Below are positions 38,060 to 60,893 of a DNA stretch of 64,000 bases, one piece after another (position 1 is the stretch's first letter; each line of letters starts with the position of its first letter). This stretch comes from Asaia krungthepensis NRIC 0535 (GTDB lineage Bacteria; Pseudomonadota; Alphaproteobacteria; Acetobacterales; Acetobacteraceae), in NCBI RefSeq assembly GCF_025995175.1, contig NZ_BAPV01000005.1, positions 62,001-126,000 on the forward strand, written 5' to 3'. The notes below the pieces were generated by a model. That model saw nothing but the letters and a program-made list of their open reading frames with translations, searched no databases and was not told the origin of the DNA. A program made the translations under genes and the position numbers.

Positions 38060-38083
38060 GTCAGCGCACTCCGCTTTTCCGGA

Positions 38084-39780: not shown

Positions 39781-39817
39781 GTCTGCCTCCTGAAACAGGG
39801 GAATTCGCCAGATTGTT

Positions 39818-41674
39818 CTAGTTGCCGATGCGCTGCGTGCCGCGCTGGCGCTCATAGCCTTCGCGTGCTGTCGTAACCTGGGCGCGCTCCGAAACCTCCG
39901 GTACGGCCACATCCCACCAGGCGCCACCATCGGTCGTGGTGGGAGCGGGATCGGTATCGATCACGATGACCGTGGTGCGGTCGGCAGAGCGGGCACGTTC
40001 GACTGCCTCCGTCAGGGAGGGGAGATCAGGCACTTTTTCGGCATGCGCGCCCAGCCCATGGGCCAGTTGCACGAAATCGATCTTGAAGGGACGAACCTGG
40101 CGGCAATCTTCCCAGAGATTATTGAACGGCGCGCCACCACATTCCTGCTGCAGGCGGTTGATGCAGCCATAGCCGTGATTGTCGAGAAGCACGACGATCA
40201 GCTTCCGGTCGAGCAATACGGAGGTGGCGATCTCGGTATTGAGCATGAGCCAGGACCCGTCGCCCAGCATCACGATCACCTCGCGATCGGGGCAGGCCAT
40301 CTTGACGCCCAGCGCACCCGCCAACTCGTAGCCCATGCAGGAAAAACCGTATTCCATATGGTAGCCGCCCGGCTGCTCGGCCTGCCAATGCTTCTGGAGT
40401 TCGGCAGGCAGACCGCCCGCCGCACAGACCACCGTATCGGTGGGCCGCCCTGTGCGCTGTACGGCCCCGATAACCTGTGCATCGGTCGGCAGTCCCGTCT
40501 GGCTGCCATCGGGCAGCGCCTGATAACGGGCTGAGATCTCCATCCAGTGGCGATAGGCACGTTCGGCCTTGCCGGTCCAGCTGCTCTCGGCCTTCCAGCC
40601 TGTCAGGCCGGCTTCGAGCGCAGAAAGGGACTTGCCTGCGTCGCCCACCACGGCAAGGGCCTGATGCTTGGTCGCATCGAAGGGCTGCACGTTAAGCGAG
40701 ACGATCTTCATGTCAGGATTGGAGAACAGCCCCCAAGACCCGGTCGTGAAATCGGCCAGGCGCGTGCCCACCGCAATCACCAGATCGGCCTCAGCCGCCA
40801 TCTCATTGGCCGCCGAGCTGCCACTGACGCCAATCCCGCCCATATTCAGGCTGTTTGAGGTCGGCAGGGAGGAGCGCCCGGCCTGCGTCTCGCCTACCGG
40901 GATACCCTTGGCCGCACAAAAAGCCGCAAGCTGCTTTTCGATCCCGGCATAGAGCACCCCGCCCCCGGCAATGACCATCGGCTTGCGCGACTGGCTGATA
41001 AGGGCAATCGCCTCTTCCAGCTCACGTTCATCGGCACCCGGGCGACGAACGCGATGGATACGCTCGGCGAACAAGCTCTCGGGGTAATCGAAGGCCTCGG
41101 CCTGCACGTCCTGACACAGCGATAAGGTGACAGGGCCGCATTCGGCCGGGTCGGTCAGAACCGCCATGGCGCGCTGGAAGGCCGGAATGATCTGCTCCGG
41201 CCGGGTGATCCGATCGAAATAGCGCGAGACCGAGCGGAACGCATCGCTCGCACTCACCGTGCCATCGCCGAAGTCCTCGACCTGTTGCAGCACGGGATCG
41301 GGGATACGATTGGCGAACACATCACCCGGCAGAAGCAGAACCGGCAGGCGGTTGACATGCGCAACGGCAGCGCCTGTCACCATGTTCAGCGCGCCCGGTC
41401 CGATCGAACTCGTGCAGGCCATCACCTGACGGCGGCGCGATGCCTTGGCAAAGGCTGTCGCCGCATGAACCATGCCCTGCTCGTTATGCCCGCGCAGGGT
41501 TGGCAGAGTATCGCGTGCGCCGTGCAGGGCCTCGCCGATACCCGCCACATTACCATGGCCGAAAATAGCCCAGACCCCCGCAAAGAAGGGCTCGATACGC
41601 CCCTCGATCTCGGTCTTCTGCGCGATCATGGCCCGTATAAGAGCCTGGCTCATGGTCAGACGAATGGTTTTCAT
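39818..41674 (-). CDS. iolD: 3D-(3,5/4)-trihydroxycyclohexane-1,2-dione acylhydrolase
   Basis: ThDP enzyme that opens the inositol-derived ring to give 5-deoxy-D-glucuronate. 618 residues, three ThDP-family domains. Glu65 in RGHNEQGMVH is the cofactor-activating acid. The diphosphate/metal motif begins GDGSWLMLNTEIATS and ends with DNHGYG. The family-specific start MKTIRLTMSQALIRAM supports ATG 41674. 22 bp after iolC. Confidence 0.96.
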   Translation of the reverse strand: MKTIRLTMSQALIRAMIAQKTEIEGRIEPFFAGVWAIFGHGNVAGIGEALHGARDTLPTLRGHNEQGMVHAATAFAKASRRRQVMACTSSIGPGALNMVTGAAVAHVNRLPVLLLPGDVFANRIPDPVLQQVEDFGDGTVSASDAFRSVSRYFDRITRPEQIIPAFQRAMAVLTDPAECGPVTLSLCQDVQAEAFDYPESLFAERIHRVRRPGADERELEEAIALISQSRKPMVIAGGGVLYAGIEKQLAAFCAAKGIPVGETQAGRSSLPTSNSLNMGGIGVSGSSAANEMAAEADLVIAVGTRLADFTTGSWGLFSNPDMKIVSLNVQPFDATKHQALAVVGDAGKSLSALEAGLTGWKAESSWTGKAERAYRHWMEISARYQALPDGSQTGLPTDAQVIGAVQRTGRPTDTVVCAAGGLPAELQKHWQAEQPGGYHMEYGFSCMGYELAGALGVKMACPDREVIVMLGDGSWLMLNTEIATSVLLDRKLIVVLLDNHGYGCINRLQQECGGAPFNNLWEDCRQVRPFKIDFVQLAHGLGAHAEKVPDLPSLTEAVERARSADRTTVIVIDTDPAPTTTDGGAWWDVAVPEVSERAQVTTAREGYERQRGTQRIGN

Positions 41675-41696
41675 ATCCGTATACTCTTCCCTGACG

Positions 41697-43622
41697 TCAC
41701 ACGCTGGCCCCGGAGAGCACCGCCTGATCGCGGGACTCCCAGGCATTTACGAAGGCTTGGAACCGGCGGGCCATCTCGGCCACGGCTTGCTCGTCGCTGG
41801 TCTTGCCGGCCAGCCAGTCCCGTGCGGGCTGGGCAAAGATCGTGCGACCAATGGCGAAGCCCTTGACCCAGGGTGTGGCTGCCGAGGCCCTGAAAGCCTC
41901 CATCAGCTCTTCCGCCGGGGCATCGAGCCCCAAAATCACGACCCCACGGCAATGCGGGTCCCGTGCCTCGATGACGGCGCCGATCTTTTCCCAGGCCTTG
42001 GGGTCGCGCTGGCCCTCGAGCTTCCACCAATCTGGACGCAGCCCGACATCGTAGAGACGCGAGAGAATGGACGAGACGGTCTCGGAGGTCAGGGTGCCGT
42101 TCTTGCCCGCGATAATCTCGATCAGAATTTCCTTGCCGAGCTTGCGGCAGGCATCCTGCGCGCGGACCAGTTCACGCTCCTGACGCTGCTTGAGCTCCTC
42201 GGAATCATCGGGATGGTAGAAGCACAGGCATTTGATGACCTGTTCGCTGGGCCATTCCACCAGATGCGCGCCAAGGGAGCCACCACATTCGAAATCGAGC
42301 GGGCGCGACCCCGTCTTCTCGATCGGACGGGCGGTCCAGAGCCCGGCATGGGACGCTTCGAACAAGGCATCCTGACCGTAGCGCCCATCCATGAACACGC
42401 CAAAACCCGGGCGTCCCTGCGCCACGGATTTCGCGGCTGCAACTGCCAGCGTCTTGAATTTCGGGATACGGTCGAAAGAAGCGCCGACGGCCGTTGCAAT
42501 TTCCTCGAGCTGGAGACGGTGATCGCAGGCGAGCGCCATGATGGGCGTGGTCTGTGCGCGACGTGTCGTGACCCAGTGAAGATGGTTGATGGCCTCGTCA
42601 CGGCGGAGGGCGCGATGGGTGCTACCCTTTTGGAGGAAATAGCTCAGCTCTTCCCAGGTCGGGATTTCAGACGAGCAGAGAAGACGCGACACCGCAAAAG
42701 CACCGCAGGCATTGGCGAAGCGGCAGCATTCGACAATCTTCTCGCCGCGCACCCAGCCCCGCAGGAAGCCGGACATGAAAGCATCGCCCGCGCCCAGCGT
42801 GTTATAGACCTCGACCGGAAAACCGGGGCCAGAAATACCGTCTTCCAGCGATTGCGGAATAGGCCCTTCGAACACGACACAGCCCATGGGGCCGCGCTTG
42901 CAGACGATGGTCCCATCCGAGACAGCCCTGATGGCGCGGATAGCCTCAAGCGTGTCCTCGCTCCCACCCGCTATATGCAGTTCTTCTTCCGTACCCACGA
43001 TCAGGTCGCAATGAGGCAGGATCGTCATGAGATGACGGGTGACGTTATCGGATTTCACATAGCGTGATTCCCCGTCCCCGATACCGGCAAGCCCCCAGAG
43101 ATTGGGGCGATAATCCACATCGAACACGACCTTGCCGCCATGCTCATGCACGAGATCCATTGCCTTGCGCTGTGCCCTGGCCGAGGCCGGGCGCGAGAAA
43201 TGCGTGCCGGTTACGACGACCGCTCTGGTGCGCGCAATCAGTGCCGGGTCGATATCATCCTCGTCTAGGGCGGCATCGGCACAATCGGTGCGATAGAACA
43301 GGAGCGGGAAATTCTCCCGATCGCGTACGCCGAGAATGGCGAGCGCCGTAAAGCGATCGGGATCGACGCGCACGCCATCGGTACAAACCCCTTCACGCTG
43401 CAACTGCTCGGTGATGAAGCGGCCGAAATGCTCGTGACCCACCCGGGTGATGATCCCGGATTTCAGACCGAGGCGTGAGGTGCCGATGGCGATATTGGCG
43501 GGACATCCGCCCACGGCCTTGCTGAAACTCGCCATGTCTTCCAGACGGCCGCCAATCTGTTGTCCGTACAGATCGACCGAAGAACGTCCTATTGCGATGA
43601 TATCGAGATCCTGTCCGCGCAT
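41697..43622 (-). CDS. iolC: 5-dehydro-2-deoxygluconokinase fused to a DUF2090 aldolase-like domain
   Basis: Two-domain protein of 641 residues. Residues 1-325 form a PfkB-family kinase: VGGCPANIAIGTSRLG near 38-53, and NTLGAGDAF with catalytic Asp280 at 274-282. It phosphorylates 2-deoxy-5-keto-gluconate. Residues about 345-630 are a DUF2090/LacD-like barrel (IMALACDHRLQLEE, EIIAGKNG, DWWKLEG, FAIGRTIF) that probably cleaves the phosphorylated product, replacing a separate IolJ. ATG 43622 is chosen over 43640 because CAGGAGTCGGGG lies directly ahead. First gene of the inositol operon. Confidence 0.93.
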   Translation of the reverse strand: MRGQDLDIIAIGRSSVDLYGQQIGGRLEDMASFSKAVGGCPANIAIGTSRLGLKSGIITRVGHEHFGRFITEQLQREGVCTDGVRVDPDRFTALAILGVRDRENFPLLFYRTDCADAALDEDDIDPALIARTRAVVVTGTHFSRPASARAQRKAMDLVHEHGGKVVFDVDYRPNLWGLAGIGDGESRYVKSDNVTRHLMTILPHCDLIVGTEEELHIAGGSEDTLEAIRAIRAVSDGTIVCKRGPMGCVVFEGPIPQSLEDGISGPGFPVEVYNTLGAGDAFMSGFLRGWVRGEKIVECCRFANACGAFAVSRLLCSSEIPTWEELSYFLQKGSTHRALRRDEAINHLHWVTTRRAQTTPIMALACDHRLQLEEIATAVGASFDRIPKFKTLAVAAAKSVAQGRPGFGVFMDGRYGQDALFEASHAGLWTARPIEKTGSRPLDFECGGSLGAHLVEWPSEQVIKCLCFYHPDDSEELKQRQERELVRAQDACRKLGKEILIEIIAGKNGTLTSETVSSILSRLYDVGLRPDWWKLEGQRDPKAWEKIGAVIEARDPHCRGVVILGLDAPAEELMEAFRASAATPWVKGFAIGRTIFAQPARDWLAGKTSDEQAVAEMARRFQAFVNAWESRDQAVLSGASV

Positions 43623-43658
43623 CCCCGACTCCTGCAGCATGTTACGTTGCCCATGATA

Positions 43659-46417: not shown

Positions 46418-47368
46418 TCAGTAACCGCGCCGATGGTCGAAAAGAAGCGCAGGCATCTCGCCGCGTTCAAGCTGGGCGATACTCTGGGCCAGATAGCGCA
46501 CCTGAGCCTCTCTTGACGCTTCAGAGGCGACATGGGGCGTGAGCGTGATGGCAGGATGATCCCAGAGAGGCGAGACTGGTGAGAGCGGTTCCTGCGCAAC
46601 GACATCGAGCACGGCCCCGGCGAGATGTCCCGCCTCCAGCAGAGCCAGAAGATCGGCCTCGACCAGATGATCGCCGCGCCCGACATTGATAAGCCCCGCT
46701 CCGCGCTTGAGCAGAGACAGGCTTCCGCGGTTCAGGATCTGGCGGGTCTGGGGCGTGCTTGGCAGCAGATTGACCAGTAGATCGGTGCCAGCCAGAGCGG
46801 AAGCAAACCCCTCCTCACCGCCGAGGAGCCGAACCTCGCCATCGCGGGTCTCACCCGAAGCGCGACGCCAGGCCGTAACCTGAAACCCTGCCCGCGCCAG
46901 TCTTTGCGCCACGACCGAGCCGATCTGCCCATAGCCCAGCACTGTCACATGCGTGCTGGCAGAGGTGCGCGAGACTAGGTTGCGCGCCCAGACATGACGC
47001 TCCTGCTGCAATGCCCAGGTGCGTGCATCGCGCAGAAGGGTCATGCAGGCCCAGAGCACGTAATCGGCCATGAGCGTTCCGGTATCGCCGCCACCCATAC
47101 GCACCAGAGGCACATGGTGGGGAAAATCGGGACTGCTCACCAGATGGTTCACGCCAGCGCCAGTGCAGAGAATGCCCCGCATGTGATGCATGGCCCGCAG
47201 ATCATGATCATCGGCTTCCCAGACCAGCGCATATTGCGCCTCTTCTCGCGGGGTCTGGGTATCGAACCAGGAGACGACGTCGATTTCCGGGGCATGCTGC
47301 GCGAAGGAATCGCGCCACCCCGCATAAGCCTCGGGTCCATCCGCACTGATTATCAACCTTGGGGCCAT
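46418..47368 (-). CDS. D-2-hydroxyacid dehydrogenase, GhrA-like glyoxylate/hydroxypyruvate reductase
   Basis: 316 residues. NAD(P) motif GYGQIGS in the middle, catalytic Arg in LINVGRGDHLVE, Glu in DVVAQEPL, and His in LTPHVAS. The substrate loop GAGVNHLV fits the GhrA group, which reduces glyoxylate and hydroxypyruvate. ATG 47368 has AGGAG upstream. 61 bp after the pentein hydrolase gene, so probably co-transcribed and working on a 2-oxo-acid produced in that pathway. Confidence 0.88.
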   Translation of the reverse strand: MAPRLIISADGPEAYAGWRDSFAQHAPEIDVVSWFDTQTPREEAQYALVWEADDHDLRAMHHMRGILCTGAGVNHLVSSPDFPHHVPLVRMGGGDTGTLMADYVLWACMTLLRDARTWALQQERHVWARNLVSRTSASTHVTVLGYGQIGSVVAQRLARAGFQVTAWRRASGETRDGEVRLLGGEEGFASALAGTDLLVNLLPSTPQTRQILNRGSLSLLKRGAGLINVGRGDHLVEADLLALLEAGHLAGAVLDVVAQEPLSPVSPLWDHPAITLTPHVASEASREAQVRYLAQSIAQLERGEMPALLFDHRRGY

Positions 47369-47429: not shown

Positions 47430-48296
47430 TCAGGCCAGACTGGCACGTCTGAGCGGCATCGTCATGCAATGAATGCTGCCGCCGCCCTGGGAAAACTGGT
47501 CGAGTTCGGGCTCATAAACCGTCAGCCCATGATCGCGCAGCAGCGCGTTGACCCGGCGCGAATGACGGGGGCTGACCACGCGGCCGTCACCCAGAGCCAG
47601 AACGTTGCAGGCCATATCCCGCATGGCTTCCTTGTAGCTTACCGGCAAGATCCGGATGCCCTGCGCCTCGAACCAGGCCAGGTCTTCATCCTCGAGCACA
47701 TCGGTCACGCCAATCGCCAGCCCTTCGGACACCATGGTGAAGATCACATCCAGATGCAGGAAATGCTCGGGGAAATGGATCATGCGGCAGGTCCATCCCG
47801 CCGCTTCGAAAGGCTTCAGGAATTCCTGTGCGCCCGTCACGTCGGTGCGTCCCCCGCTCACGCCGACCACGACCAGGCCCGGGCGGATGATATGGATATC
47901 CCCACCCTCGACATAGCCTTGGGTGCAACGACCGATGATTTCATCCTCGCCGTAAAATGCCTCGATCCCCTCGCTTTCAGGCTGGCGCTCGGGGCGCATC
48001 AGGCGGGTGACCACCGTGCCCCATGGCGTGGTCTGGGAGGAATCGCGGGTATAGACCTGATAGATCTGCCCTTCCCTAGGCGTCAGGAAGTGACAATGGA
48101 CGCCTGCCTCCTTCAGCACGGCCACAAGACCATCGAATTGGGCGCGCAGCTTTGCCGGGTCGGGGCGTGCGCCACTGGCAAGGCTGCGTATGGCGATATC
48201 GTTGCTGGGGTTCCAGCTATAGAAATCGGGTGGGCAGAGCAGCACATCCGTCAGCGTTCCGGTTTCACTATCGACAAACCAGCGATTGGCGGTCAT
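47430..48296 (-). CDS. Pentein-superfamily hydrolase (arginine deiminase/dimethylargininase type)
   Basis: Hydrolyses a guanidino compound. 288 residues. The catalytic triad elements are visible: acid in YVEGGDIHII, His in FLHLDVIFTMVSEG, and nucleophile Cys in GGGSIHCMTMPL near the C-terminus. Size and pattern fit dimethylarginine dimethylaminohydrolase- or citrullinase-like members better than full arginine deiminase (about 400 residues). GGGGAG precedes ATG 48296. Divergent from a LysR regulator and a polar-amino-acid ABC transporter, which suggests a guanidino amino acid as imported substrate. Confidence 0.85.
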   Translation of the reverse strand: MTANRWFVDSETGTLTDVLLCPPDFYSWNPSNDIAIRSLASGARPDPAKLRAQFDGLVAVLKEAGVHCHFLTPREGQIYQVYTRDSSQTTPWGTVVTRLMRPERQPESEGIEAFYGEDEIIGRCTQGYVEGGDIHIIRPGLVVVGVSGGRTDVTGAQEFLKPFEAAGWTCRMIHFPEHFLHLDVIFTMVSEGLAIGVTDVLEDEDLAWFEAQGIRILPVSYKEAMRDMACNVLALGDGRVVSPRHSRRVNALLRDHGLTVYEPELDQFSQGGGSIHCMTMPLRRASLA

Positions 48297-48527: not shown

Positions 48528-49511
48528 ATGCTGTCTGAATCAGGATTCCTGCCCTTGTCCCGTGCGCGTACGCCCAACCAGCCTCGACGCCTCCCCCGTG
48601 CCAGCGGATTTCAGGGCCGCATTGCGGAGGTCGATCTGCGGTTGCTGCGGGTCTTTGCCTGCGTGGCGCAACATGGCGGGTTTGCCGCGGCCGAGCTTGC
48701 GCTGGGCAAGAGCAAATCCTCCATCAGCATCGATATTGCCGCGCTCGAAAACCGCCTCAGCATGGTGCTTTGCCATCGCGGTCGGGCAGGATTTGCGCTC
48801 ACGAGCGAGGGGGAAGGCGTGCTCGATGCCACGACGCGTCTGTTCAACGATCTCGATCTGTTTCAGCAGCGAATCAATGACGTGAGCGGCACGCTGTCAG
48901 GCCGTTTCTGCCTCTATCTGCCCGATAACATCCAGTTCCATGGGGAGACGGCGCTTTTGCGCGCCATACAGATCTTTACCAGCCGTTATCCGGCGGTCGA
49001 ACTGGATGTGCGCTCCGCCTCGACACGCGATGTCGAGTTCGCCGTTCGCAACGGCACGGCAACCGCAGGGATCACGCTCTACCCCCATCAGCAGCCGGAA
49101 ATGGAAGCGACCGCGTTGTTCAGCGAGCGGTCCAATCTCTATTGCGGCCCACGTCATCCGCTTTTCGAAGTGCCGGAAGAGGCTATCGATATCGCGGCTC
49201 TGGCGCAGGCACGCATGATCAGCGTGAGCGATGCCGCTTCGTCCCCGCGCTGGGACGAATTACGCCCCGCCATGAATTTCGCCGCGAAAGCCGAGAACAT
49301 CGATTCCCGCGCGCTGCTGATCCTGTCAGGCATGTATGTCGGGTTCCTGCCTGAGCTGTTCGTCACCCAGATGGTCCAGCAGGACCGGTTGCGTCATATC
49401 CGTTTCAATGACCTGCATCTGGTCAATCACTTCTATTTCCTGATACGCCCCACGCCGGAAAACGGTCTCATGGCCGAAACATTCCGCTCCATTCTCGAAG
49501 AGACATGCTGA
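48528..49511 (+). CDS. LysR family transcriptional regulator
   Basis: 327 residues; the N-terminal 35 residues before the HTH are an unusual basic extension. HTH: LRLLRVFACVAQHGGFAAAE, then LALGKSKSSISIDIAALE. The effector domain runs to the C-terminus. It overlaps the transporter gene by 7 bp, so regulator and transporter are one transcript, while the pentein hydrolase is divergent 231 bp away; all are probable targets. A later start would remove the extension. Confidence 0.9.
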   Translation: MLSESGFLPLSRARTPNQPRRLPRASGFQGRIAEVDLRLLRVFACVAQHGGFAAAELALGKSKSSISIDIAALENRLSMVLCHRGRAGFALTSEGEGVLDATTRLFNDLDLFQQRINDVSGTLSGRFCLYLPDNIQFHGETALLRAIQIFTSRYPAVELDVRSASTRDVEFAVRNGTATAGITLYPHQQPEMEATALFSERSNLYCGPRHPLFEVPEEAIDIAALAQARMISVSDAASSPRWDELRPAMNFAAKAENIDSRALLILSGMYVGFLPELFVTQMVQQDRLRHIRFNDLHLVNHFYFLIRPTPENGLMAETFRSILEETC

Positions 49512-51091
49512 TGCGGCTTCTGACCTGCCTGCTCCTCTGCCTCGCAGCTCTTCTGTCGAGCGCGTCTGTCAGGGCGCAGGAGCGCCCCTCCTTCATCGAG
49601 AACAACACGCTGAGTGTGTGCACCAACCCGACCCTGCCGCCCATGACCTTTGTCAATGGGGCGGATCTCTCGGCGATTGACGGGTTCGATATCGCACTGG
49701 CCAGGGAGCTCGGTGCGCTGTGGCATGTGCCGGTCACCTTCAAGACCATGGATTTTACGGGGCTGTTCCCGAGTCTGGCCGCCGGGCGGTGCAGCTTGGT
49801 CATCAGCGGGGTGCTGAAGCAGGCGGCACGCGAGCATCTTTTCGACGCCGTTGCCTATCTCGACACCTCACCGGTTATCGTGGCCCCGAGCCAGATTGCG
49901 CCGGTTACGAGTTTCGAGGCTCTGGCCGGCCAGAGCCTCGCCGTCGAATCCGGGACCAGCTATGCGGCCCGTATCGAGGAGATCAACCGGACCCTGATCT
50001 CGCGCGGCAAGCCCCCCATCGCCTTGCAGCAATATCCGAGCGAGGATCAGGTGGTGCAGCAGGTGCTTGTCGGGCGCTCGCAGAATTTCCTCAGTCAGGA
50101 TGTCGAGCTTTTCTATCGTCAGGCCCAGCTTGGCGGGAAGCTCCACGTGATCTTCAGTCCCAGCCTGCCGGGCTATTCCGAGTTCGCGCTCTATCTGCGC
50201 CGCTCCGGTCAGGACAAGGCGCTTCTGGCCGCTGCCATCGACACGCTGAAGAGACAAGGCAAAATCACGGCCCTCGAGAAGAAATGGAATGTGGGTAAAG
50301 CCGCGCGCGCCGCCCTCGGCGTGACGAGCGAAAGGCCGCGTTTCAATACCGCCACTTTCTTTTCGGCGCTGTTTTCCATGGCATTTCTCAAAGGCGCCGT
50401 GATGACACTGGTCATTGCGTTGGCCTCCCATGCCGCCGCCATCGTGATTTCCATTCCCATCGCGCTCAAGCTCAACGCGCCGCGCTCCCTCTGGCATCCC
50501 TTCCTGCGCGCCTATGTCGCCGTATTCCGGGGCGCGCCGACCCTGCTGCAATTACTGTTCATCTGGAATGCCCTGCCGCAATTCTTTCCCATATTTCGTG
50601 AAGGATGGTTCTCGCCGTTTCTTGCCACCTGGATCTGCCTGTCGATCAATGAATCGGCCTATCAGGTCGAGATCAACCGTGCCGCGTTGAGCGCCATCGA
50701 CCCCGGGCAACTGGCAGGCGGGCAGGCTTTGGGCATGAGTCCGTCGCAAATCTACCGCCATGTGATCTTTCCGCAGGCATTGCGCGTGGCCCTGCCGCCC
50801 ACCATCAACGAGTTCATCTCCCTGCTCAAGACCACCTCGCTGGCCTCGGTCATCTCCCTGCAGGAACTGCTTTTCATTACCCAGGTCCAGGTGGCGCGCA
50901 GCTTCGAGTTCACCGAGTATTACGCGGCGGCACTGGTCTATTATCTGGCTATGGTCTTCGCCTTCCTGCATCTGCAAAAACGCATCGAGACCCGCTTCGT
51001 CTGGGCCAGTCGCGCCAGTGCCGGAGGAAAGACAGGACCGCGTATCGAGAGCCCAACAGACGGAACGGAGGCGTCGCGCCATGCTGCATAA
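49505..51091 (+). CDS. Polar amino acid ABC transporter: fused substrate-binding protein and permease
   Basis: 528 residues in one chain. Signal sequence 1-24 (LLTCLLLCLAALLSSAS). Periplasmic-binding domain, family 3, about 30-265 (TNPTLPPMTFVNG, GFDIALARELG). Permease, HisM/GlnP type, about 285-510, with the ATPase-coupling loop LAGGQALGMSPSQIYRHVIFPQALR. Such fusion removes the need for a free binding protein. Followed by the ATPase gene with an 11-bp overlap. Tandem ATGs 49505 and 49511 are both possible. Confidence 0.92.
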   Translation: MLMRLLTCLLLCLAALLSSASVRAQERPSFIENNTLSVCTNPTLPPMTFVNGADLSAIDGFDIALARELGALWHVPVTFKTMDFTGLFPSLAAGRCSLVISGVLKQAAREHLFDAVAYLDTSPVIVAPSQIAPVTSFEALAGQSLAVESGTSYAARIEEINRTLISRGKPPIALQQYPSEDQVVQQVLVGRSQNFLSQDVELFYRQAQLGGKLHVIFSPSLPGYSEFALYLRRSGQDKALLAAAIDTLKRQGKITALEKKWNVGKAARAALGVTSERPRFNTATFFSALFSMAFLKGAVMTLVIALASHAAAIVISIPIALKLNAPRSLWHPFLRAYVAVFRGAPTLLQLLFIWNALPQFFPIFREGWFSPFLATWICLSINESAYQVEINRAALSAIDPGQLAGGQALGMSPSQIYRHVIFPQALRVALPPTINEFISLLKTTSLASVISLQELLFITQVQVARSFEFTEYYAAALVYYLAMVFAFLHLQKRIETRFVWASRASAGGKTGPRIESPTDGTEASRHAA

Positions 51092-51842
51092 TCTGCCTCC
51101 CGATCCGGATTGCGCGCTCAGCCTGCGCAAGCTCAGCAAATTCTATGGCGAGTTTCTGGCTCTGGACCGGATCAGCCTCGATATCGCCCATGGGGAGAAG
51201 ATCGTCGTGCTTGGCCCTTCGGGCTCGGGAAAATCGACCTTCATCCGCACGCTCAACCGGATCGAGCCGCATGATAGCGGTGTGCTGATGATCGATGGCG
51301 AGGTGATTGACGACAAGACCAGCCTGCCTTTGCTGCGCGGGGCGGTGGGCATGGTATTCCAGAACTACAATCTGTTCCCGCATCTGACCGTGCTGGAAAA
51401 CTGCATTCTGGCCCCGCGTCTAGTGCGCAAGGCCCATCGCGATGCGACCGAAAGCCTCGCGCGTGCCTATCTGGATCAGGTCGGTATCGGCGAACAGGCC
51501 GATAAATACCCGATCCAGCTTTCAGGCGGTCAGCAGCAACGCGTCGCCATTGCACGCGCCTTGTGCATGGCCCCCGATATCATCCTCTTCGACGAGCCCA
51601 CCGCTGCTCTGGATCCCGAGGCCATCAAGGGTGTGATCGGGATCATCGATAGTCTGGCCGAGCGCCGGATCACCACCATCTGTGTCACCCATGAGATGGG
51701 CTTTGCCCGTCACATCGCCGATCGCGTCGTCTTCATGGACAAGGGCGTCGTACTCGAAGCCTCGCCGCCCGAGCAATTCTTCACGGCTCCGCAAAGCGCG
51801 CGTGCACGCCAGTTTCTGGACCAGATGATCCATCACGCCTGA
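51081..51842 (+). CDS. Polar amino acid ABC transporter ATP-binding protein
   Basis: 253 residues. Walker A GPSGSGKST (45-53), signature LSGGQQQR (147-154), Walker B IILFDEP and switch His in CVTHEMGFA. GlnQ/HisP subfamily, matching the fused transporter upstream. Starts inside the permease gene with GGAGG ahead, so coupled. Together they form a complete importer. Confidence 0.96.
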   Translation: MLHNLPPDPDCALSLRKLSKFYGEFLALDRISLDIAHGEKIVVLGPSGSGKSTFIRTLNRIEPHDSGVLMIDGEVIDDKTSLPLLRGAVGMVFQNYNLFPHLTVLENCILAPRLVRKAHRDATESLARAYLDQVGIGEQADKYPIQLSGGQQQRVAIARALCMAPDIILFDEPTAALDPEAIKGVIGIIDSLAERRITTICVTHEMGFARHIADRVVFMDKGVVLEASPPEQFFTAPQSARARQFLDQMIHHA

Positions 51843-52036
51843 ACCAAGGCACGAGATTCAGGCTTCCTCCTCTCCGCCCCAGGAGAACGGGAGAGCTCGT
51901 GCGCTCTTGCGTCAAATTTCAAGGAAGGCGCGAAATGGGTAATGATCTGACAAAGTGAGGTTTGGTTTTTTCCAATCGACCATGATGTCGTTTCGCCTCT
52001 TCAATGACAGGGAAGCCACTGACGGGAGTCCTTTTC

Positions 52037-54370
52037 ATGATGACGCGCCTGCCCAAAGGATTTCGCCGCCTGACCAGCACGGCGCTTTCGCTCTCCGCCG
52101 GAATCGTGCTGGTTGGCTCGGGATTGAACGCGCCCTGTATGGGCGGTGTGGCCCATGCAGCCACCGCGCCAAGTGTCGCGGCCCAGAAGAATGCCACTCA
52201 TCGCGCGGTGTCGTCCCGGGTCGGTCAGGCGTCGCGCAGTGGCATTCGTTCACGGCGTCATGCAGCGCCCCATTCCGACCCGGAGGCCATTCAGGTCACG
52301 GGCTCGCGGGCGCAGCGCTTCCTGACCACGGCCGCGACGGTCAATGTGCTGAGTGGCCGCGAATTGCAGGAACTGCACATCACCAGCCCCAAGGATATTG
52401 CCGCCTATACGCCCGGCCTTACCGCGGTGAATGCCACTTCGGGCAGCACGCCTGTCTTCTCGATCCGCGGGATCGGGCTGGACGATTATACCGGCAATAA
52501 TATGGGCGGGATCGGCATCTATCAGGACGGCGTCTTTGCCCCCTATCCTGTATTCTATACGGGGCAGATGTTCGACACCCAGTCCGTCGCCGTCGAGAAG
52601 GGGCCGCAGGGTTTCGATTACGGGCGCAGTTCCACGGGCGGGAACATTGCGGTCGAGACGGTCAAGCCCGATGGCAAATTCGGCGGCTATGTGGATTGGG
52701 GCTATAGCAGCTATGGTACCAACACGGCGAGTGCAGCGGTCAATGTGCCAATTACCGACCGTATCCAGAACCGCACCGCCTTTTCCTATATCAATGGCGA
52801 TGGCTGGCAGCGCGATATCCACACGAACAAACGCTATGGCTCGCAGGATCAGCTCGGCTTGCGCAATCTCACGCGCTTTCTGATTGATGACCGTTCTAGC
52901 CTGCTGCTGAACATCCATTACACGCGCGACAAGGGTATTTCGATGTCGCCGCAGGATACGGATGGCGATGCGGTCAACGGCTTTCCGACCGGAACGGTGG
53001 GTGTGGGGCCGAACGCCGCCTATAACGCGGTCAATGTGGGCACGAACCGTGTGGGCCGCAACGAGAATGGCGGCGGCGTCTCGATCAATTACACGCATGA
53101 TTTCAACTGGGGGCAGTTTGTTTCGACCACTGCGTTCGACGCCTTCCGTCGCAGCGATTATGATAATTACGATGGTGAATCAATCAACGTCGGTGATTAT
53201 CATTGGAACGACACGTCCCTCGCCCAGTCCCATGACATGCATCTCAGGATGGATCTGGCAAAGCGCTTCCACCTGACGGTGGGCGTCTACGAATCCTGGG
53301 ATAAGATCAACGGGGCCTATACGAGTTACCGCTCCTTTCTGCTCGGCGTGCCCAACGGCAATCTGACGGATCGCTTCGTACAGCAGAATGTCTCGTCCGG
53401 GCTCTATATCAACACGGTCACCAATGTGCTGCGGAACCTCGATTTCATCGCCTCGGGCCGTTTCTCCTGGGATGATCGTGGCTTCAATGGCGGCACGATC
53501 GACGATGCTGGTGCGCTGACGACCAAGGGTGCCTATCTGTCACGCCTCGACACCACCCATTCCTATGCCCGCCTGACAGGGCGCGTGGGGCTCCGTTACA
53601 CCATCGTGCCCGGCACACAGGTCTATGCCACCATTTCCAACGGCTACAAGGCGGGCGCCTATTTTGCGGCCCCTGTTTCAGCCCCTCAGGCGCTCGATTA
53701 CGTGCGTCCTGAGAACATGATCGCTTATGAAATCGGCGCCAAGACCAGCCTGATGCACAACCATGTGCAGATCGAAGGCGCACTGTTCGATTACGAATAT
53801 CACAACCGCCAGACGCTGTTCGTGGCTGAAATGCCCATGAACATCACCTCGCTCAGCCTTGGGCCGATCCCCCGTGCCCGTACCCGTGGCGGTGAATTGT
53901 CGAGCACGCTGTATGATCTGATCCCGAATCTCGATCTGCGTGGCTCTTTCGCCTATCTCGATGCGCAGGCGACCAATGCGGTCAATGATATTGGCGGTCT
54001 GCCGCTGCTTTCCTCCGTTACCGCTCATTCGGTGCTGCCTTTTGCCCCGCGCTTCTCCTGGAATGCCGTGGCACGCTATGGCATCGACCTGCCGCGCGCC
54101 TATCGTATGACGCTCCAGACCAGCTACACCTGGAAGGACAATATGCTCGTGGCTCTGGGCGACCCCAATGGCGTGACCGACAAGATCAGCTCTTTCGGGA
54201 TGCGGATGGAAGTGGGGCCGAAAACCGGCAAATGGACGGCTGCCGTGTATGTCGACAACATGCTCAACAAGCACGGCAACACCTATTCCTTCACCGGGTC
54301 GGATAATTCCCGCGTGCAGTTCCTTCAGACGCCACGCTGGATCGGCTGCGATCTGCGCTATAATTTCTGA
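52037..54370 (+). CDS. TonB-dependent receptor
   Basis: Outer-membrane receptor, 777 residues from ATG 52037 (GGAG upstream; an earlier ATG at 52004 lacks one). Signal peptide to about 42 (GGVAHAA). TonB-box-like region EAIQVTGSRAQR, plug GRELQELHITSPKDIAAYTPG and VEKGPQGFDYGRSSTGG, then a barrel ending in terminal Phe (DLRYNF). 194 bp after the ABC ATPase and 12 bp before the isomerase gene. It probably brings the substrate of the downstream enzymes across the outer membrane; the ligand is unknown. Confidence 0.9.
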   Translation: MMTRLPKGFRRLTSTALSLSAGIVLVGSGLNAPCMGGVAHAATAPSVAAQKNATHRAVSSRVGQASRSGIRSRRHAAPHSDPEAIQVTGSRAQRFLTTAATVNVLSGRELQELHITSPKDIAAYTPGLTAVNATSGSTPVFSIRGIGLDDYTGNNMGGIGIYQDGVFAPYPVFYTGQMFDTQSVAVEKGPQGFDYGRSSTGGNIAVETVKPDGKFGGYVDWGYSSYGTNTASAAVNVPITDRIQNRTAFSYINGDGWQRDIHTNKRYGSQDQLGLRNLTRFLIDDRSSLLLNIHYTRDKGISMSPQDTDGDAVNGFPTGTVGVGPNAAYNAVNVGTNRVGRNENGGGVSINYTHDFNWGQFVSTTAFDAFRRSDYDNYDGESINVGDYHWNDTSLAQSHDMHLRMDLAKRFHLTVGVYESWDKINGAYTSYRSFLLGVPNGNLTDRFVQQNVSSGLYINTVTNVLRNLDFIASGRFSWDDRGFNGGTIDDAGALTTKGAYLSRLDTTHSYARLTGRVGLRYTIVPGTQVYATISNGYKAGAYFAAPVSAPQALDYVRPENMIAYEIGAKTSLMHNHVQIEGALFDYEYHNRQTLFVAEMPMNITSLSLGPIPRARTRGGELSSTLYDLIPNLDLRGSFAYLDAQATNAVNDIGGLPLLSSVTAHSVLPFAPRFSWNAVARYGIDLPRAYRMTLQTSYTWKDNMLVALGDPNGVTDKISSFGMRMEVGPKTGKWTAAVYVDNMLNKHGNTYSFTGSDNSRVQFLQTPRWIGCDLRYNF

Positions 54371-54382
54371 TCCGACACGAGC

Positions 54383-55258
54383 ATGACGGGAGACGACACG
54401 CCGATGCGCCTCGACAGCTTCCTGACACTCTGGGGCGATCTCCGCCCCTGGGATACCGTCATCGCCGATGCCCATCGTCGAGGCTATGACGGTATCGAGG
54501 CGCGTATCCCGGAACCGGAAAACCTCTCAGCCCGTTGCATGGCACTGCGCGACGCAGAATGCCCCTATATCGCCATTGCCCTGACCGGGGGCGGAGTCAT
54601 ACCCCGCCAGAGCGCGACGCTGGACGATCATCTGGCCGATCTGGATGATGCTCTTGGGCGCGCCGCGCTCCTCTCCCCCCGCTTCGTGAACGTGCTGGGC
54701 GGCAATGATCGCTGGAATACTGCGCTCCAGGCCGAATTCATCGGTCGTGCCCTGCAGCTGGGACAGAAGCACGGGCTGACGCTCAGCTTCGAGACCCATC
54801 GTGCCCGGCTCTGCGCCACGCCCTGGATGACGCTCGATGTTCTCGCGCAGATACCTGAGGCGCTTTTTACCGCCGATATCAGCCATTGGGTGGTGGGCTG
54901 CGAAAGACTGCTCGATGACCCCTGCGATGATTTCAGCGCTTTTATCGCGCGCGTGCATCACGTTCAGGCGCGCGTGGGCTACGATCAGGGACCGCAGGTT
55001 TCGCATCCCGCGGCACCTGAAAATCGCGCCGCACTCGATTTTCACCGCGATTTCTGGTGCCGGATCTGGGTGTCACAGCGCGCTCGCGGCTACGATGTCA
55101 CGACGCTGACACCGGAATGTGGCCCCGATGGCTACACCCATACCTTGCCCTTCACCGATCTGCCCCTTGCCGACCGCCACGCCATGAATGACTGGCTCAG
55201 GCAGGATCAGGTCAGATCCTTCGCGGGGTGCTTCCCCGCTTCAGCAGGAGAGTCCTGA
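54383..55258 (+). CDS. Sugar phosphate isomerase/epimerase-like TIM barrel
   Basis: 291 residues of the AP-endonuclease-2/xylose-isomerase superfamily. Visible pattern: DSFLTLWGDLRPWDTVI, GYDGIEARIP, LSFETHRARL, FTADISHWVVG and LTPECGPDGYTH, carrying the Glu, Asp, His and Glu positions for a divalent metal. Substrate unknown. It begins 12 bp after the TonB receptor and stops 1 bp before the oxygenase start, so it is within the same operon. ATG 54404 is an alternative start. Confidence 0.82.
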   Translation: MTGDDTPMRLDSFLTLWGDLRPWDTVIADAHRRGYDGIEARIPEPENLSARCMALRDAECPYIAIALTGGGVIPRQSATLDDHLADLDDALGRAALLSPRFVNVLGGNDRWNTALQAEFIGRALQLGQKHGLTLSFETHRARLCATPWMTLDVLAQIPEALFTADISHWVVGCERLLDDPCDDFSAFIARVHHVQARVGYDQGPQVSHPAAPENRAALDFHRDFWCRIWVSQRARGYDVTTLTPECGPDGYTHTLPFTDLPLADRHAMNDWLRQDQVRSFAGCFPASAGES

Positions 55259-55259
55259 C

Positions 55260-56294
55260 ATGACAGAAGAGACGTTCACGTCCATTCCGGTGATCGATAT
55301 TGCCGGGCTGTATTCGGCAGACAAGACCGATCGTCAGAAAGTGGCGGCGGCGCTGCACGAGGCGGCCAGCAGGATCGGGTTCTTCTATATTGCCGGTCAT
55401 CGCGTCGCGCCCAAACTCATCACCGATCTGCGCCAGGCCGCGAAGGATTTCTTCTCCCAGCCTCTGGAGGAGAAAATGAAGCGCTATATCGGGAGTTCCG
55501 CCTCTCATAAGGGCTTCGTTCCGGAAGGGGAGGAAATCTACAACAAATCCCGACCCGACCATAAGGAAGCCTTCGATATCGGCTTCGAGGTTCCTGCCGA
55601 TCACCCTCTGGTCCAGTCCGGAACGCCGCTTCTCGGTCCGAATGACTGGCCTGAAATCCCGCTGTTCCGCGAACGGGCAAGCGCCTATTACAAGGCCGTT
55701 TTCGAGCTGGGGCGCGCGTTGTTTCGTGGTTTCGCCCTCGCACTGGGGCTCGATGAACATAGTTTCGACGATGTAGCGCAGTTCCCTCCCTCGAAACTGC
55801 GCATGATCCATTATCCCTTCGATGGCGAGGCCCATGACGCACCGGGCATTGGCGCGCATACGGATTATGAGTGCTTTACCATTCTGCTGGCCGACCAGCC
55901 GGGTCTGGAGGTGCTGAACGGCAAGGGTGAGTGGATCGACGCACCGCCCATTCCGGGGAGTTTCGTGGTCAATATCGGCGATATGCTCGAAATGATGACG
56001 GCGGGTACCTTTGTCGCCACCGCCCATCGTGTACGCAGCGTGAAGGAGGAACGCTATTCCTTCCCGCTCTTCTATGCCTGCGATTATCATCACGAGATAC
56101 GTCCCCTCCCCGCTTTCGAGAAGGGCGACACCGCCTATGAGGCTGTGAAGATCGGCGATCACATGTGGGCGCAGGCCATGCAGACCTATTCCTATCTCAT
56201 CGCCAAACGCGAGCGCGGCGAGATCAGCTTGCCCGAGGGAACGCGACGCACCAACACGTTCGGGCATTTCAGCAAGACGGGAGTGACCGCATGA
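55260..56294 (+). CDS. 2-oxoglutarate/Fe(II)-type oxygenase (isopenicillin N synthase family)
   Basis: 344 residues. DIOX_N-type start IPVIDIAGLYSADKTD. The iron triad is His200 and Asp202 (GAHTDYECFTILL) and His256 (VATAHRVRS); the 2-oxoglutarate carboxylate motif RYS is at 265-267. So a 2-oxoglutarate-dependent hydroxylase or oxidative dealkylase is more likely than isopenicillin synthase itself. ATG 55260 has AGGAG ahead. Couples to the aldolase gene by ATGA: hydroxylation followed by retro-aldol cleavage is a plausible sequence. Confidence 0.9.
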   Translation: MTEETFTSIPVIDIAGLYSADKTDRQKVAAALHEAASRIGFFYIAGHRVAPKLITDLRQAAKDFFSQPLEEKMKRYIGSSASHKGFVPEGEEIYNKSRPDHKEAFDIGFEVPADHPLVQSGTPLLGPNDWPEIPLFRERASAYYKAVFELGRALFRGFALALGLDEHSFDDVAQFPPSKLRMIHYPFDGEAHDAPGIGAHTDYECFTILLADQPGLEVLNGKGEWIDAPPIPGSFVVNIGDMLEMMTAGTFVATAHRVRSVKEERYSFPLFYACDYHHEIRPLPAFEKGDTAYEAVKIGDHMWAQAMQTYSYLIAKRERGEISLPEGTRRTNTFGHFSKTGVTA

Positions 56295-57025
56295 CCACCC
56301 GGACCGAGAGGGAACTGCGCGAGGAACTGGCTGCCGCCTATCGGCTCTACGCGCAGTTCGGCCTGACCGACATGGTCTACACCCATCTCTCCGTGCGTCT
56401 GCCCGGAGAGGGGCATCGCTTTCTGGTCAATCCCTACGGGCTGCTTTTCGAGGAGATTACGGCAAGCTCGCTTGTGGTGGTGGATTCAGAAGGGCACCCC
56501 CAGCAGGAGACGAGCTGGCCGGTCAATCCGGCAGGATTTGTGATCCATTCTGCCGTCCATCGCGCCCATCCCGAGGCCGACTGCGTGATGCACAGCCATA
56601 CTCTGGCGGGCATGGCCATTGCGGCGCAGGAAGACGGAATCCTGCCCCTGAACCAGATCAATATGGAGTTCTACGGGCGCATCGGGTTTCACCCCTATGA
56701 GGGCATTGCGGCAGACGACAATCTGAGTGAGCGCGAGCGACTGGTGCGCGATCTGGGCGACCATATGGGACTGATCCTGCAAAATCACGGCCTGCTGACC
56801 ATTGGCAGCACCGTGGCTCAGGCCTTTTATCGCATGTATTATCTGGAACAGGCCTGCCGCGTGCAGCTCGCCGCACAATCGACCGGGGCCAAGCTGCACT
56901 GTCCGAGCGAAGCCGAGGTATTGCGCGCGCGCCAGCAATTCGAGACAGACCCCGATCAGGGCCAGATGATCTGGAAAGCCCTGCGCCGCAAGCTGGATCG
57001 CGAACAGCCGGATTACAGGGACTGA
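56291..57025 (+). CDS. Class II aldolase/adducin family protein
   Basis: 244 residues. Zinc ligands HSH in MHSHTLAG (His101, His103) and His166 in LILQNHGLLT; all three are in the usual family positions. Phosphate-binding and specificity residues are not clear enough to separate aldolase from decarboxylase or epimerase. Last gene of the TonB-isomerase-oxygenase-aldolase set, starting inside the oxygenase stop codon and ending about 340 bp before a strong terminator. Confidence 0.87.
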   Translation: MTTRTERELREELAAAYRLYAQFGLTDMVYTHLSVRLPGEGHRFLVNPYGLLFEEITASSLVVVDSEGHPQQETSWPVNPAGFVIHSAVHRAHPEADCVMHSHTLAGMAIAAQEDGILPLNQINMEFYGRIGFHPYEGIAADDNLSERERLVRDLGDHMGLILQNHGLLTIGSTVAQAFYRMYYLEQACRVQLAAQSTGAKLHCPSEAEVLRARQQFETDPDQGQMIWKALRRKLDREQPDYRD

Positions 57026-57418: not shown

Positions 57419-60400
57419 TCAGAGAGCGACCTTCACACCGAACTGGAAGGAACGGAGAACGACACCGTTCTGCGTCCAGGACGGGTTGTAGAGATAGCCA
57501 CCATAAGTGCCGAAGTCGTAAGGCGACTTGAAACCGAGGAGGTTGTAGACGTTGGCATAAGCGCTCCAGCGGCGATTGAACTGGTAGTTCACCGTCAGAT
57601 CGACATCCCAGAAACCCTTGACCTTGCACTGGCCCAGCGGAACGAAGCTGCTGGACTGGAGGGCATCGGCGCAGTTGCCTGCTGTGTCCGATCCGGTCTG
57701 GTCTTCAGCCGTCGTGCGATAGCCGCTGGTGTAATAGACCGTCGGCGTGACGGCCAGCTTGCGCCACGAGAAGGTGTTGGACCAGTTGGCGCGCCATTTC
57801 GGCGTTCCCGAGGCGGAGACAGCGCCATAGGGGCCAAGCGTACCGGCGAAACGATAGACCGAGCCATCCGGATTGGTCAGGTTCATGCGGCGCACGAAGG
57901 TGGCCCCGCCCTTGCTGTACCAATGGACTTCGCTCAGGGCACCGGGGAGCTGGGTATTGATCTCGATCGAGAGATCGAAACCGTCCGTCACCAGCTTGTT
58001 AGTGTTCACATAACCCAGATTGATGATGCCAGGACGAAGCTGACCGCCGGGGTTCTGCGGATCGGCGATATCCGGCGTCACGGTCACGCCCGTCGGGAGG
58101 GCTTCACCTGCCAGATAGGCATTGGCCACATTCGTGGTGCCCACCGGGTTCGGTGCAATGTAGTGGTTCTTGCGGATATAGTAGTAGTCGGCGCTCAGCG
58201 TCATCCAGCGCGTGGGACGGAAGATCGGCCCACCCGAGAAGTTGGTTGAGGTCTCAGGACGCAGATTCGGGTTACCGGCGGTGTTCGAACCGATATAGTA
58301 GTTCTGCGCGTAGTTATTGGGGGTACCGTTGGCGTTCAGATGCTGGCTGATGAAGTTGGCGTTATTGGGCGTATAGGTGGTGTAACCCACATTCGAGCCA
58401 CCGGTTTCAGCAAAGCTCGGAACGCGGAAGCCCTTCTGGAACGTGCCACGCAGGGTCAGCTTTTCGGTCGGTTTGAACTGCACACCGAATTTCGGCGAGA
58501 AATGGCTGAAGCCTTCCGAGTAGTGATCGTAACGGCCCGACGCATCGGCGCTCAGCATCTTCACGATCGGCGCATCGGCCTGGAAGAAGGCCGACTCGAC
58601 CCAGCGGCTGCCCTGGGCATTCACCGGATTGATATAGCTCGTGTACTGATTGGCCGGATTGGCTGTGTCGAGCGGATTGGCGTTCGGGTCGTTCAGGGCT
58701 TCGTAACGTATGTTGCCACCGATCGCGAGCTTGGCCATACCGCCCGGCAGGCGGAACAGACCCTTGCTCAGCGTCGCCTCACCCGAATATTCCTGCGTAC
58801 GCGCATTGATGACGTTGCGCGGTGCGATCGAGTTCAGCACCGATTGCGAGTTCTGCGACGGATCCACGAAGTTGTAGCTGCCGCTGGTAATGGCATTCTG
58901 GATGCCCGAAATCGTCGGCACGCCCGTGATGGTCTGGTTCAGCAGCGTGTTCATGCCAACGAAGTTGACGTCGTAATTCCAGTCCGAACCCCAGCGCGAC
59001 GGGTGCCAGCCATTATAGCGCACCGAGCCACGGAAGTTCTGGCTGGTTTCCATGGTGGTGGGGATCAGATCGCCGAACCGGTAATTGACCTGCGCCTGCT
59101 CGCCAAGCGCTGCATAGGGATTGTTCGGGTTGAGCGAGCCATCGGGCAAATAAACCGGCAGATAGGTGTTCTGCGCGGTGGCCAGCTTGGCCTGGCTGTA
59201 CGAGGTGCTGCCATAGGTGGAATAGGGCGTGCCGGTGATGATCGAGCGCGCCTGCGACCAGGTGAACATGGCCGTGAGTTGCGAGCGCTCGGTCACATTG
59301 GCTGTGAAATGCGCGGTGGCGCTGACACGACGCAGATCGGGCGCTACCTGCGCGTATTTCTGCGTGTTCCACGAGCAGGCCTGGCTGGTGCCGGTGCTGC
59401 CACCGACCGAGCCGGTCACGACACCGCCCAGACTACCGCAGCCTGCCTGCTGGTTCAGCAGTGACCATGGTGCCGTATTGGTGCCGGTCCCCGTCACGGG
59501 GCGCACGAGGGCCACAGTCGAAGGTGAGAAATTGGTGATCGACCCGCCAGAGGCGATGTTGTCGTTACCATTGCCACCACCGATTCCGGTCAGATCGCCG
59601 TTGTTATAGGGCGCGCCGAGCTGACGGTAATAGAGCGGATCGTCCTGCTGGTATTCCGAGTTGATATAGAAGTTATAGCCGTCGCGATGCAGGTCGCCAT
59701 GGCCCCATGTCGCGTAGAGACGCTGATGCCCAGCATCGCCGCGCTGGGTCAGACCGCCTTCGGCATTGCCTTCAAAACCCTTGATCTCCTTGCGGGTGAT
59801 CATGTTGACCACACCGGCAACGGCGTCGGCACCATAGGTGGCCGAACCGCCATCCTGCAGCACGTCCACACCCTGCATGATGGATTGCGGCATCCAGTTG
59901 GTGTCGACGAAGTTGCGCTCGCCGTCATCGGCCAGCGGATAATAGGACAGGCGCTGGCCGTCCATGAGCACCAGGGTCGAGTCCGTGCTGAGACCGCGCA
60001 GCGAGGGAGCCGAGGCACCGGCGGCGAAGCCCCCCCCCTGCCGACCAGGCATTGGTAAGGTTGCCAGAACCGTTGGATGACAGGAGCTGCAGTGCATCGG
60101 TCACGGTCTTGATGCCGCGCTGCTGCATGTCCTTCATGGTGATGTGGGTGATGGGCGAGGCGCTGGTGGTGTTCGGATCGCGGAACAGCGAGCCTGTCAC
60201 CATGATCGTCTCGGGGCGCGAGGTCGCGGGAGCGTCCCCAACCGGAGCGGAAACAGCCCGAGCGCGCGTCGAGCGGCTCTGGGCATTGACCTTCACCTTG
60301 CTCTTGGCAGGAGCCTTCGCGGCGTTGACTGGGATTGTGGATGTTTCAGGGGCTGCAACACTCTGTGCTCTTGCGTCGCTGACAAAATGCAACAGGGCGA

Positions 60401-60515
60401 TACAGGCGGTGGCACTCATGAGACCGGCGGCAAGTGGTCGCTTGCGTCGGGTTGACGGGGCGACGATTGGGGCAGAAATGCCCGATTCGTGCGTCTCTCT
60501 TGGGGACAGCGTCAT
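57419..60515 (-). pseudogene. Large TonB-dependent receptor, split by a frameshift in a nine-G tract
   Basis: Upstream frame (ATG 60515 to the tract) holds a signal region (LMSATACIALLHFVSDARAQS), a TonB-box-like PETIMVTGSLF and the plug start up to NLTNAWSAGGG. The downstream frame continues the plug (AAGASAPSLRGLSTDSTLV, then LMDGQRLSYYPL) and a full barrel ending FQFGVKVAL. Reading eight instead of nine G would join them into one protein of about 1,030 residues. The second frame is intact for over 870 codons, which argues against old decay: sequencing error, recent mutation or phase variation. STNxxL-type large receptors of this size often take carbohydrates or peptides. Monocistronic. Confidence 0.85.
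60030..60038 (-). repeat. Homopolymer of nine G (C on the plus strand) at the frameshift
   Basis: Nine consecutive C on the plus strand within the plug-coding part of the TonB receptor. One base too many for an open frame. Such tracts slip during replication and are also the commonest place for sequencing errors. Confidence 0.85.
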
Positions 60516-60893
60516 GGAACGTTCCGTCAAAATGGGTTAATTCGCGATATTACGCATCGCAACGTTCCCAAGGCGTAACGGCAGATTGTTAACGCTCGCA
60601 AGGCGGGTTACACTTTTATTACATAGTTTGAAAACGACTGTGCAACAATGTCACAGTAGCGAATCCAGAGTTACCGAAGGGAAATCATTCCTTTTCAGTT
60701 ACTTACAGCCGCATGAATTCGAGACCCATTCAATCGGTGCAGCGCTGTTTCGAAAAAAATCGAATTTCCTGGGAACCGTTAATCGTTAACGATTGACAGG
60801 CATTGGAACACCGGGAGCAGCGCCTCCTTGCGGGGCATGCGTCATGGCCTTTCGCTGTCCGTCATTGTCATGCGGAACAGCGCAGAAAACAGA
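60516..60893. other. Intergenic region upstream of the split TonB receptor
   Basis: Relatively AT-rich. Contains the presumed minus-strand promoter of the receptor. A 67-codon plus-strand frame at 60586 has no ribosome-binding site or recognisable product and is not called. Confidence 0.5.

Follow-up and report, generated by a model that had tools for sequence, protein, structure and literature searches.

We analysed a 64,000-nucleotide stretch of DNA (the window) from the acetic acid bacterium Asaia krungthepensis NRIC 0535 (assembly GCF_025995175.1, contig NZ_BAPV01000005.1, positions 62,001 to 126,000; part of contig 5 of a 3.5-Mb genome) that contains a tight catabolic-type gene array. 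Seven genes follow one another on the plus strand: a LysR-type regulator (48528..49511; PF00126, PF03466); a solute-binding protein (SBP, family 3) fused to the permease of a PAAT-type importer (49505..51091; PF00497 (SBP_bac_3), PF00528 (BPD_transp_1)); the importer ATPase (51081..51842; PF00005); a TonB-dependent outer-membrane receptor (52004..54370; PF07715, PF00593); a TIM-barrel protein with the xylose isomerase fold (54383..55258; AP_endonuc_2 in Pfam); a 2-oxoglutarate (2OG)/Fe(II) oxygenase (55260..56294; PF14226, PF03171); and a class II aldolase/adducin-fold protein of the PRK07044 family (56291..57025; PF00596 (Aldolase_II); NF005451 336.6 bits against a cut-off of 207). The genes overlap by 7, 11 and 4 bp or lie 12 and 1 bp apart, with a single larger gap of 161 bp; open reading frames (ORFs) and Pfam matches reproduce exactly what a sequence-only reading had listed. 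That reading missed two genes on the minus strand, divergent from the LysR gene: an arginine-deiminase-fold (ADI-like), guanidino-group-modifying hydrolase (47430..48296; PF02274 and PF19420 above cut-off) and a GhrA-like D-2-hydroxyacid dehydrogenase (46418..47368; PF02826; best NCBIfam match PRK15469 GhrA at 187 bits, below its cut-off of 403). Both travel with the array and are members of the module too, and the LysR gene is likely its regulator.

The spacing is well preserved. In six Asaia/Swaminathania loci, counting the window, the overlap between SBP and ATPase (-11), the gap between TIM and oxygenase genes (+1) and the overlap between oxygenase and aldolase-fold genes (-4) are identical; the overlap between LysR and SBP genes (-7) is found in five of the six, and the gap between ATPase and TonB receptor ranges from 61 to 161 bp. 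A simple pattern scan of the 161-bp gap found no terminator-like site.

The closest named relatives of the oxygenase belong to Asaia species and Swaminathania salitolerans (87-99% identity). Matches at E<=1e-40 occur in 96 of 200 Acetobacteraceae genomes; identity of at least 71% is reached only in ten, its own included, and the next value is 42%. We considered these 42%-identical oxygenases as relatives of the module and rejected them, having found no such neighbourhood at seven of their loci (L048-L054). Across 13 loci of acetic acid bacteria, with the window among them, the oxygenase, importer and aldolase-fold gene are always present, the TIM protein, TonB receptor and ADI-like hydrolase are each present in 12, the LysR gene in 11 and the dehydrogenase in ten; eight of the 13 are closely related Asaia/Swaminathania loci and are not independent. 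The module of Kozakia baliensis is plasmid-borne, with transposases nearby, and its aldolase-fold gene sits behind the dehydrogenase in the divergent arm, so that it is relocated yet retained (this locus was retrieved twice, as L045 and L076; it is counted once among loci, and both copies are among the 42 rows of the TIM alignment). In genome G123 the module is rearranged, and the TIM, ADI-like and dehydrogenase genes do not lie within the 20-kb stretch.

Searches with the TIM protein found homologues in 9 of 398 genomes of the phylum (its own included) and 18 of 244 in a second order, and in 17 of the 119 from one family within that order; these sets overlap. We read 30 TIM loci outside Acetobacteraceae, comprising about 20 kb from each of 28 of the 32 genomes and two plasmid-collection records; the TIM-bearing genomes left out were G987 (a 3.6-kb contig), G1191, G1223 and G1243, and a Klebsiella plasmid copy with broken frames (L077) was used in one neighbourhood comparison only. 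This oxygenase lies near the TIM gene in 16 of the 30 loci, a desaturase-fold protein in 12 (recognised by Pfam in seven and in the rest by similarity to two of these) and neither in two, so that 28 loci carry one or the other of two unrelated types of oxygenase. Of the 16, 13 have a PAAT importer and count as Asaia-type; they come from Klebsiella and 12 genomes of another order. Seven of these 13 have an aldolase-fold gene, five a guanidinobutyrase-like ureohydrolase and three a dehydrogenase. Locus L145 contains a match to the Pseudomonas sRNA P9 and so looks Pseudomonadales-like. The sequence-only reading would have been refuted if the downstream genes never occurred together elsewhere, and this is not the case. 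The chromosome-sized Klebsiella pneumoniae record, whose oxygenase is 61% identical, has genes for the ureohydrolase, TIM protein, oxygenase, SBP, permease-ATPase, aldolase-fold protein, dehydrogenase and an SDR; its ureohydrolase frame (L074:10122-11045) is shorter than those of its relatives, ending before them. Because the gene set recurs in 13 loci of acetic acid bacteria and its core in other orders, the array is a conserved module, beyond chance. The TonB receptor is found in none of the 30 outside loci and was seen in the module only in acetic acid bacteria.

The neighbours of the TIM protein and of the oxygenase point to guanidine. In Paraburkholderia sprentiae, TIM (42%) and oxygenase (55%) homologues are followed by carboxyguanidine-deiminase-like UAAP1/2, urea/guanidine carboxylase and allophanate hydrolase, and the stretch contains two Guanidine-I riboswitches and one Guanidine-II riboswitch. 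Guanidine riboswitches occur in three of the 30 outside loci; among the 12 desaturase-fold loci, two have both guanidine riboswitches and guanidine-carboxylase genes, and ten are without riboswitches. At four other loci, related oxygenases (45-51%) immediately precede an MgdL-like protein, with carboxylase and allophanate-hydrolase genes in two of the four; no guanidine riboswitch was found in these four stretches. The ureohydrolases of the outside PAAT-type loci score highest with the guanidinobutyrase GbuA of Pseudomonas aeruginosa (PDB 3NIO), reaching 547.6 and 553.5 bits, where 3-guanidinopropionase gives 312.5 and 302.7 bits.

One desaturase-fold locus adds a chemical hint. Just upstream of the TIM gene lie S-(hydroxymethyl)glutathione dehydrogenase (frmA) and S-formylglutathione hydrolase (frmB), both above equivalog cut-offs, a combination found in only 1 of 65 loci. 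This supports the guanidine link because formaldehyde is the product expected of N-demethylation; the corresponding proteins of Vreelandella boliviensis are made while it releases formaldehyde from methylguanidine (PMC12508155). At this locus, frmA, frmB and the genes for the TIM and desaturase-fold proteins are consecutive (L136:7665-11594), possibly forming an N-demethylation unit with its own formaldehyde disposal. At another, a ferredoxin-reductase-like protein (L131:6465-7601; NADH oxidoreductase type, below the NCBIfam cut-off) lies near the TIM and desaturase-fold proteins and could possibly supply electrons to the latter.

We built a tree of 52 oxygenases, using as controls 20 loci from the Acetobacteraceae match list and the window genome's own paralogue. 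(L040, with broken reading frames, was excluded from the TIM, SBP and oxygenase alignments, and L042 from the SBP alignment and the oxygenase tree.) The 24 PAAT-linked oxygenases form one group (support 100/99) and the four MgdL-linked ones another (100/97); a branch with 100/100 support divides both groups, together with three TIM-linked oxygenases of the guanidine type, from the 21 other Acetobacteraceae paralogues. The 11 oxygenases of acetic acid bacteria cluster with those of two second-order loci carrying a ureohydrolase and an aldolase-fold gene (92/85), which suggests horizontal gain. The window oxygenase has H200, D202 and H256. All 31 guanidine-linked oxygenases, unlike the others, share residues including E91, E92, D106, H184, E204, H301 and Q305, and K84, K179, H277 and Y310 are identical in the PAAT-linked oxygenases only; these extra basic residues would suit a carboxylate, although shared descent alone could explain them. 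The best PDB relative of the oxygenase is 9OVH, a reconstructed ancestor of the ethylene-forming enzyme (EFE).

The importer gives a hint of the substrate. With SBP_bac_3, a HEQRo-type permease (TIGR01726 at 61.8 bits, above the cut-off of 42.2) and an ATPase, it belongs to the PAAT family, and the sequence-only reading was right in calling the ABC type amino-acid-like. Aligned with AncQR, all 24 PAAT-linked SBPs keep the Arg77-equivalent, which we take to hold the ligand carboxylate. At two positions that presumably bind the alpha-amino group, L, M, V, I or Y stands in place of Thr72, and Q (11 proteins) or I (13) in place of Asp161. Since these SBPs keep the carboxylate-binding Arg and appear to lose the usual amino-group positions, the ligand suggested by the alignment is a guanidino carboxylate.

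Conserved residues are seen in the remaining enzymes as well. In the ADI-like hydrolase, D85, E130, H181, D183 and C277 (catalytic Cys, His and acidic residues) are identical in 18 homologue rows; the protein falls below all NCBIfam equivalog cut-offs for deiminases and DDAH (70.7 against 414, 62.5 against 489.1, 52.3 against 340). At two loci (L084, L085), ADI-like homologues (46%) lie beside an aldolase/adducin-fold gene (33-34%) without an oxygenase or TIM gene, and the two proteins may share a pathway elsewhere. The aldolase-fold protein keeps metal-binding histidines H101, H103 and H166 in 18 rows; the segment that may correspond to the one with catalytic Glu73 in FucA has the sequence N-x-A-G-F-x-I-H, like 3OCR and adducin, and contains no Glu. 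The dehydrogenase keeps R241, E270 and H289 in 11 rows.

What, then, does the TIM protein do? By fold it resembles mainly sugar isomerases and epimerases, and database records name members of its family 'sugar phosphate isomerase/epimerase', 'xylose isomerase' or 'hypothetical'. Metal-type residues and fold are shared with xylose-isomerase-like barrels such as Art22, allulose/ribulose epimerases and 3-keto-glucoside lyase, with identity below 20% in the rows shown, but its partner genes point to guanidino chemistry. Its partners are two unrelated oxygenases and guanidine genes, and these are easier to reconcile with a lyase that follows the oxygenase than with an isomerase. By analogy, we infer that the oxygenase and TIM protein are a hydroxylase/lyase pair cutting an N-C bond of a guanidino compound, like MgdH/MgdL, with a lyase of a different family.

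Taken together, the array is, with a probability that we put only a little above even, an operon that breaks down a guanidino carboxylic acid. Uptake of the guanidino carboxylate would fall to the TonB receptor and PAAT-type importer, whose families are clear. The oxygenase, judging by its relatives and neighbours, would hydroxylate a carbon attached to a guanidino nitrogen, and the TIM protein, as a metal-dependent lyase of the resulting N-(1-hydroxyalkyl)guanidino hemiaminal, would split this into a carbonyl compound and the liberated guanidino portion. The ADI-like enzyme, replaced elsewhere by a guanidinobutyrase-type ureohydrolase, would open the guanidino group for nitrogen. The aldolase-fold protein and GhrA-like dehydrogenase might process the carbon or carbonyl fragment, the least certain of these steps. 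Very tentatively, 4-guanidinobutyrate, or one of its N-alkyl derivatives, is the best single guess at the substrate.

Several observations weigh against this proposal. Eight of the 13 outside PAAT-type loci have no adjoining guanidino hydrolase and six no aldolase; the ADI-like gene was rejected as a pathway marker, since eight outside loci carry it without an adjoining oxygenase or TIM gene. The two most divergent TIM loci lack an adjoining oxygenase; their TIM homologues (L138 and L139; 29-33%), one of them near a DctP-type binding protein and a LysR gene, possibly have another function. Homology between the TIM protein and MgdL is unsupported: BLASTP against MgdL-like proteins gave no convincing similarity (the top match covers 52 residues with E 0.008 in a two-sequence comparison). 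The Thr and Arg are kept in both control SBPs taken from these loci; the Asp is kept in one, and the other has Asn. Among the PAAT-linked SBPs, an acidic residue directly follows the Asp161 column in those of acetic acid bacteria and directly precedes it in the others, and shifting the alignment by one position could bring the Asp back. No guanidine riboswitch was found in any of the 14 PAAT-type loci searched, which fits a released product other than free guanidine and counts equally against a guanidine pathway; the window locus had no Rfam match at E<=1, and a genome search found no Guanidine-I riboswitch. Nor does the window's genome have a guanidine carboxylase, there being only a 452-residue frame that resembles the carboxylase's first 445 residues, and free guanidine would therefore have no known outlet.

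This last point bears on a rival in which the pair severs the chain carbon itself from the guanidino group of a guanidino acid, yielding free guanidine and a semialdehyde acid, with the ADI-like or GbuA-type enzyme as a parallel hydrolytic route; EFE and the plant homoarginine hydroxylases act in this way on arginine-type substrates. The oxygenase does belong to the EFE superfamily, with 9OVH as its nearest structure, and the carboxylase genes beside the Paraburkholderia pair handle free guanidine. Yet the 14 PAAT-type loci have no guanidine riboswitch, it would be wasteful for a single operon to encode two routes for the same compound, and we rejected breakdown of free guanidine in Asaia by a carboxylase or guanidinase, having found no such gene in the genome (no match to the arginase-family ureohydrolase PF00491; urease is present). 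We regard this rival as unlikely, though a serious candidate. An ordinary or N-methylated arginine-type alpha-amino acid, such as N-monomethylarginine, asymmetric dimethylarginine, homoarginine or octopine, whose substituent the pair would remove so that arginine could be used, would suit the PAAT family, typical for amino acids, and the ADI/DDAH fold of the hydrolase. It is improbable in view of the apparently altered alpha-amino-binding positions in 24 of 24 SBPs and of the five outside loci with a guanidinobutyrase rather than an arginine enzyme.

The sequence-only reading had proposed that the substrate is isomerised, hydroxylated and cleaved by the aldolase. In the closest version of this idea, the TIM protein is a sugar-type isomerase or epimerase in an operon for the breakdown of an Amadori compound or of a glycoside of the amino-acid or guanidino type. 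The fold matches of the TIM protein and the Aldolase_II fold agree with this scheme; retro-aldol activity of the Aldolase_II protein, however, is putative, the TIM protein in guanidine settings partners either of two unrelated oxygenases with no aldolase present, one locus has formaldehyde detoxification genes, and Pfam matches in the module include no kinase, glycosidase or sugar ABC transporter. We consider it very improbable. The outer-membrane receptor, from which a large or chelated substrate had been argued, tells little about this, as it lies outside the core and was seen only in acetic acid bacteria. Uptake of a siderophore or metallophore was rejected for that reason too, and because no gene of the module relates to iron or siderophores; nothing positive speaks for an opine. 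We also dropped a link to rhizopine or inositol: a cluster that resembles inositol catabolism lies at about 35.4-44.7 kb, identified by reading ORFs (35406-43640 on the minus strand: MFS transporter, Gfo/Idh, IolB-, IolE-, IolD- and IolCJ-like, named from translations only), and its linkage in other genomes was not tested within the loci of roughly 20 kb. A second TonB-dependent receptor follows the array on the minus strand (57419-60530), its frame split across overlapping ORFs 57419-60097 and 59925-60530, which may reflect a frameshift or sequencing error; it was seen only in Asaia loci, besides a short fragment match in Kozakia, and we do not count it as a member.

In its preferred reading, as a guanidino-carboxylate operon, the module is a new variant of a known strategy, hydroxylase followed by lyase. 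The methylguanidine demethylase MgdH/MgdL of V. boliviensis is the one characterised pair for guanidino N-dealkylation, and its authors knew only one similar dedicated lyase (PMC12508155). The likeness lies in a 2OG/Fe(II) oxygenase beside a second enzyme and an ABC importer, and in the single clade that unites the window oxygenase with those beside MgdL-like proteins, where MgdH itself presumably belongs; the MgdL-like proteins of these related loci have a D-x-R spacing that matches D49/R51 as published (PMC12508155). In contrast, the window has a TIM-barrel partner and no match to the MgdL-like beta-barrel at the locus, a PAAT-type importer with oxygenases in a subclade of their own, and an ADI-like (elsewhere guanidinobutyrase-type) hydrolase, aldolase-fold protein and dehydrogenase in place of guanidine carboxylase, without a guanidine riboswitch. 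Unlike the loci with GbuA-like enzymes, the Asaia module has no ureohydrolase, the ADI-like enzyme taking its place. EFE and the plant homoarginine-6-hydroxylases are also 2OG/Fe(II) oxygenases that hydroxylate the carbon beside a guanidino nitrogen, but act on alpha-amino acids, and the parts of those reports available to us mention no dedicated lyase or importer (PMC12329707, PMC11018352).

Of greatest interest is the TIM family rather than the array itself. With somewhat less than even confidence, we suggest that its members may be metal-dependent lyases of guanidino hemiaminals, a second class that has the xylose isomerase fold and is unrelated to the first. Bacteria would combine them with either 2OG/Fe(II) oxygenases or desaturase-fold diiron hydroxylases, one in place of the other, to remove alkyl groups from guanidino compounds; the Asaia-type branch would have shifted to guanidino carboxylates, with an ADI-fold hydrolase of new specificity replacing guanidinobutyrase. 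A literature search, to which subscription papers were mostly inaccessible, returned no paper on this TIM family in guanidine metabolism or on the operon. If the family does the same job as MgdL by another fold, this would give a function to proteins now named isomerases or hypothetical. Asaia lives on flowers and fruits and in insects, and the module would offer a handle on guanidino compounds as nitrogen sources for the bacteria of these habitats.

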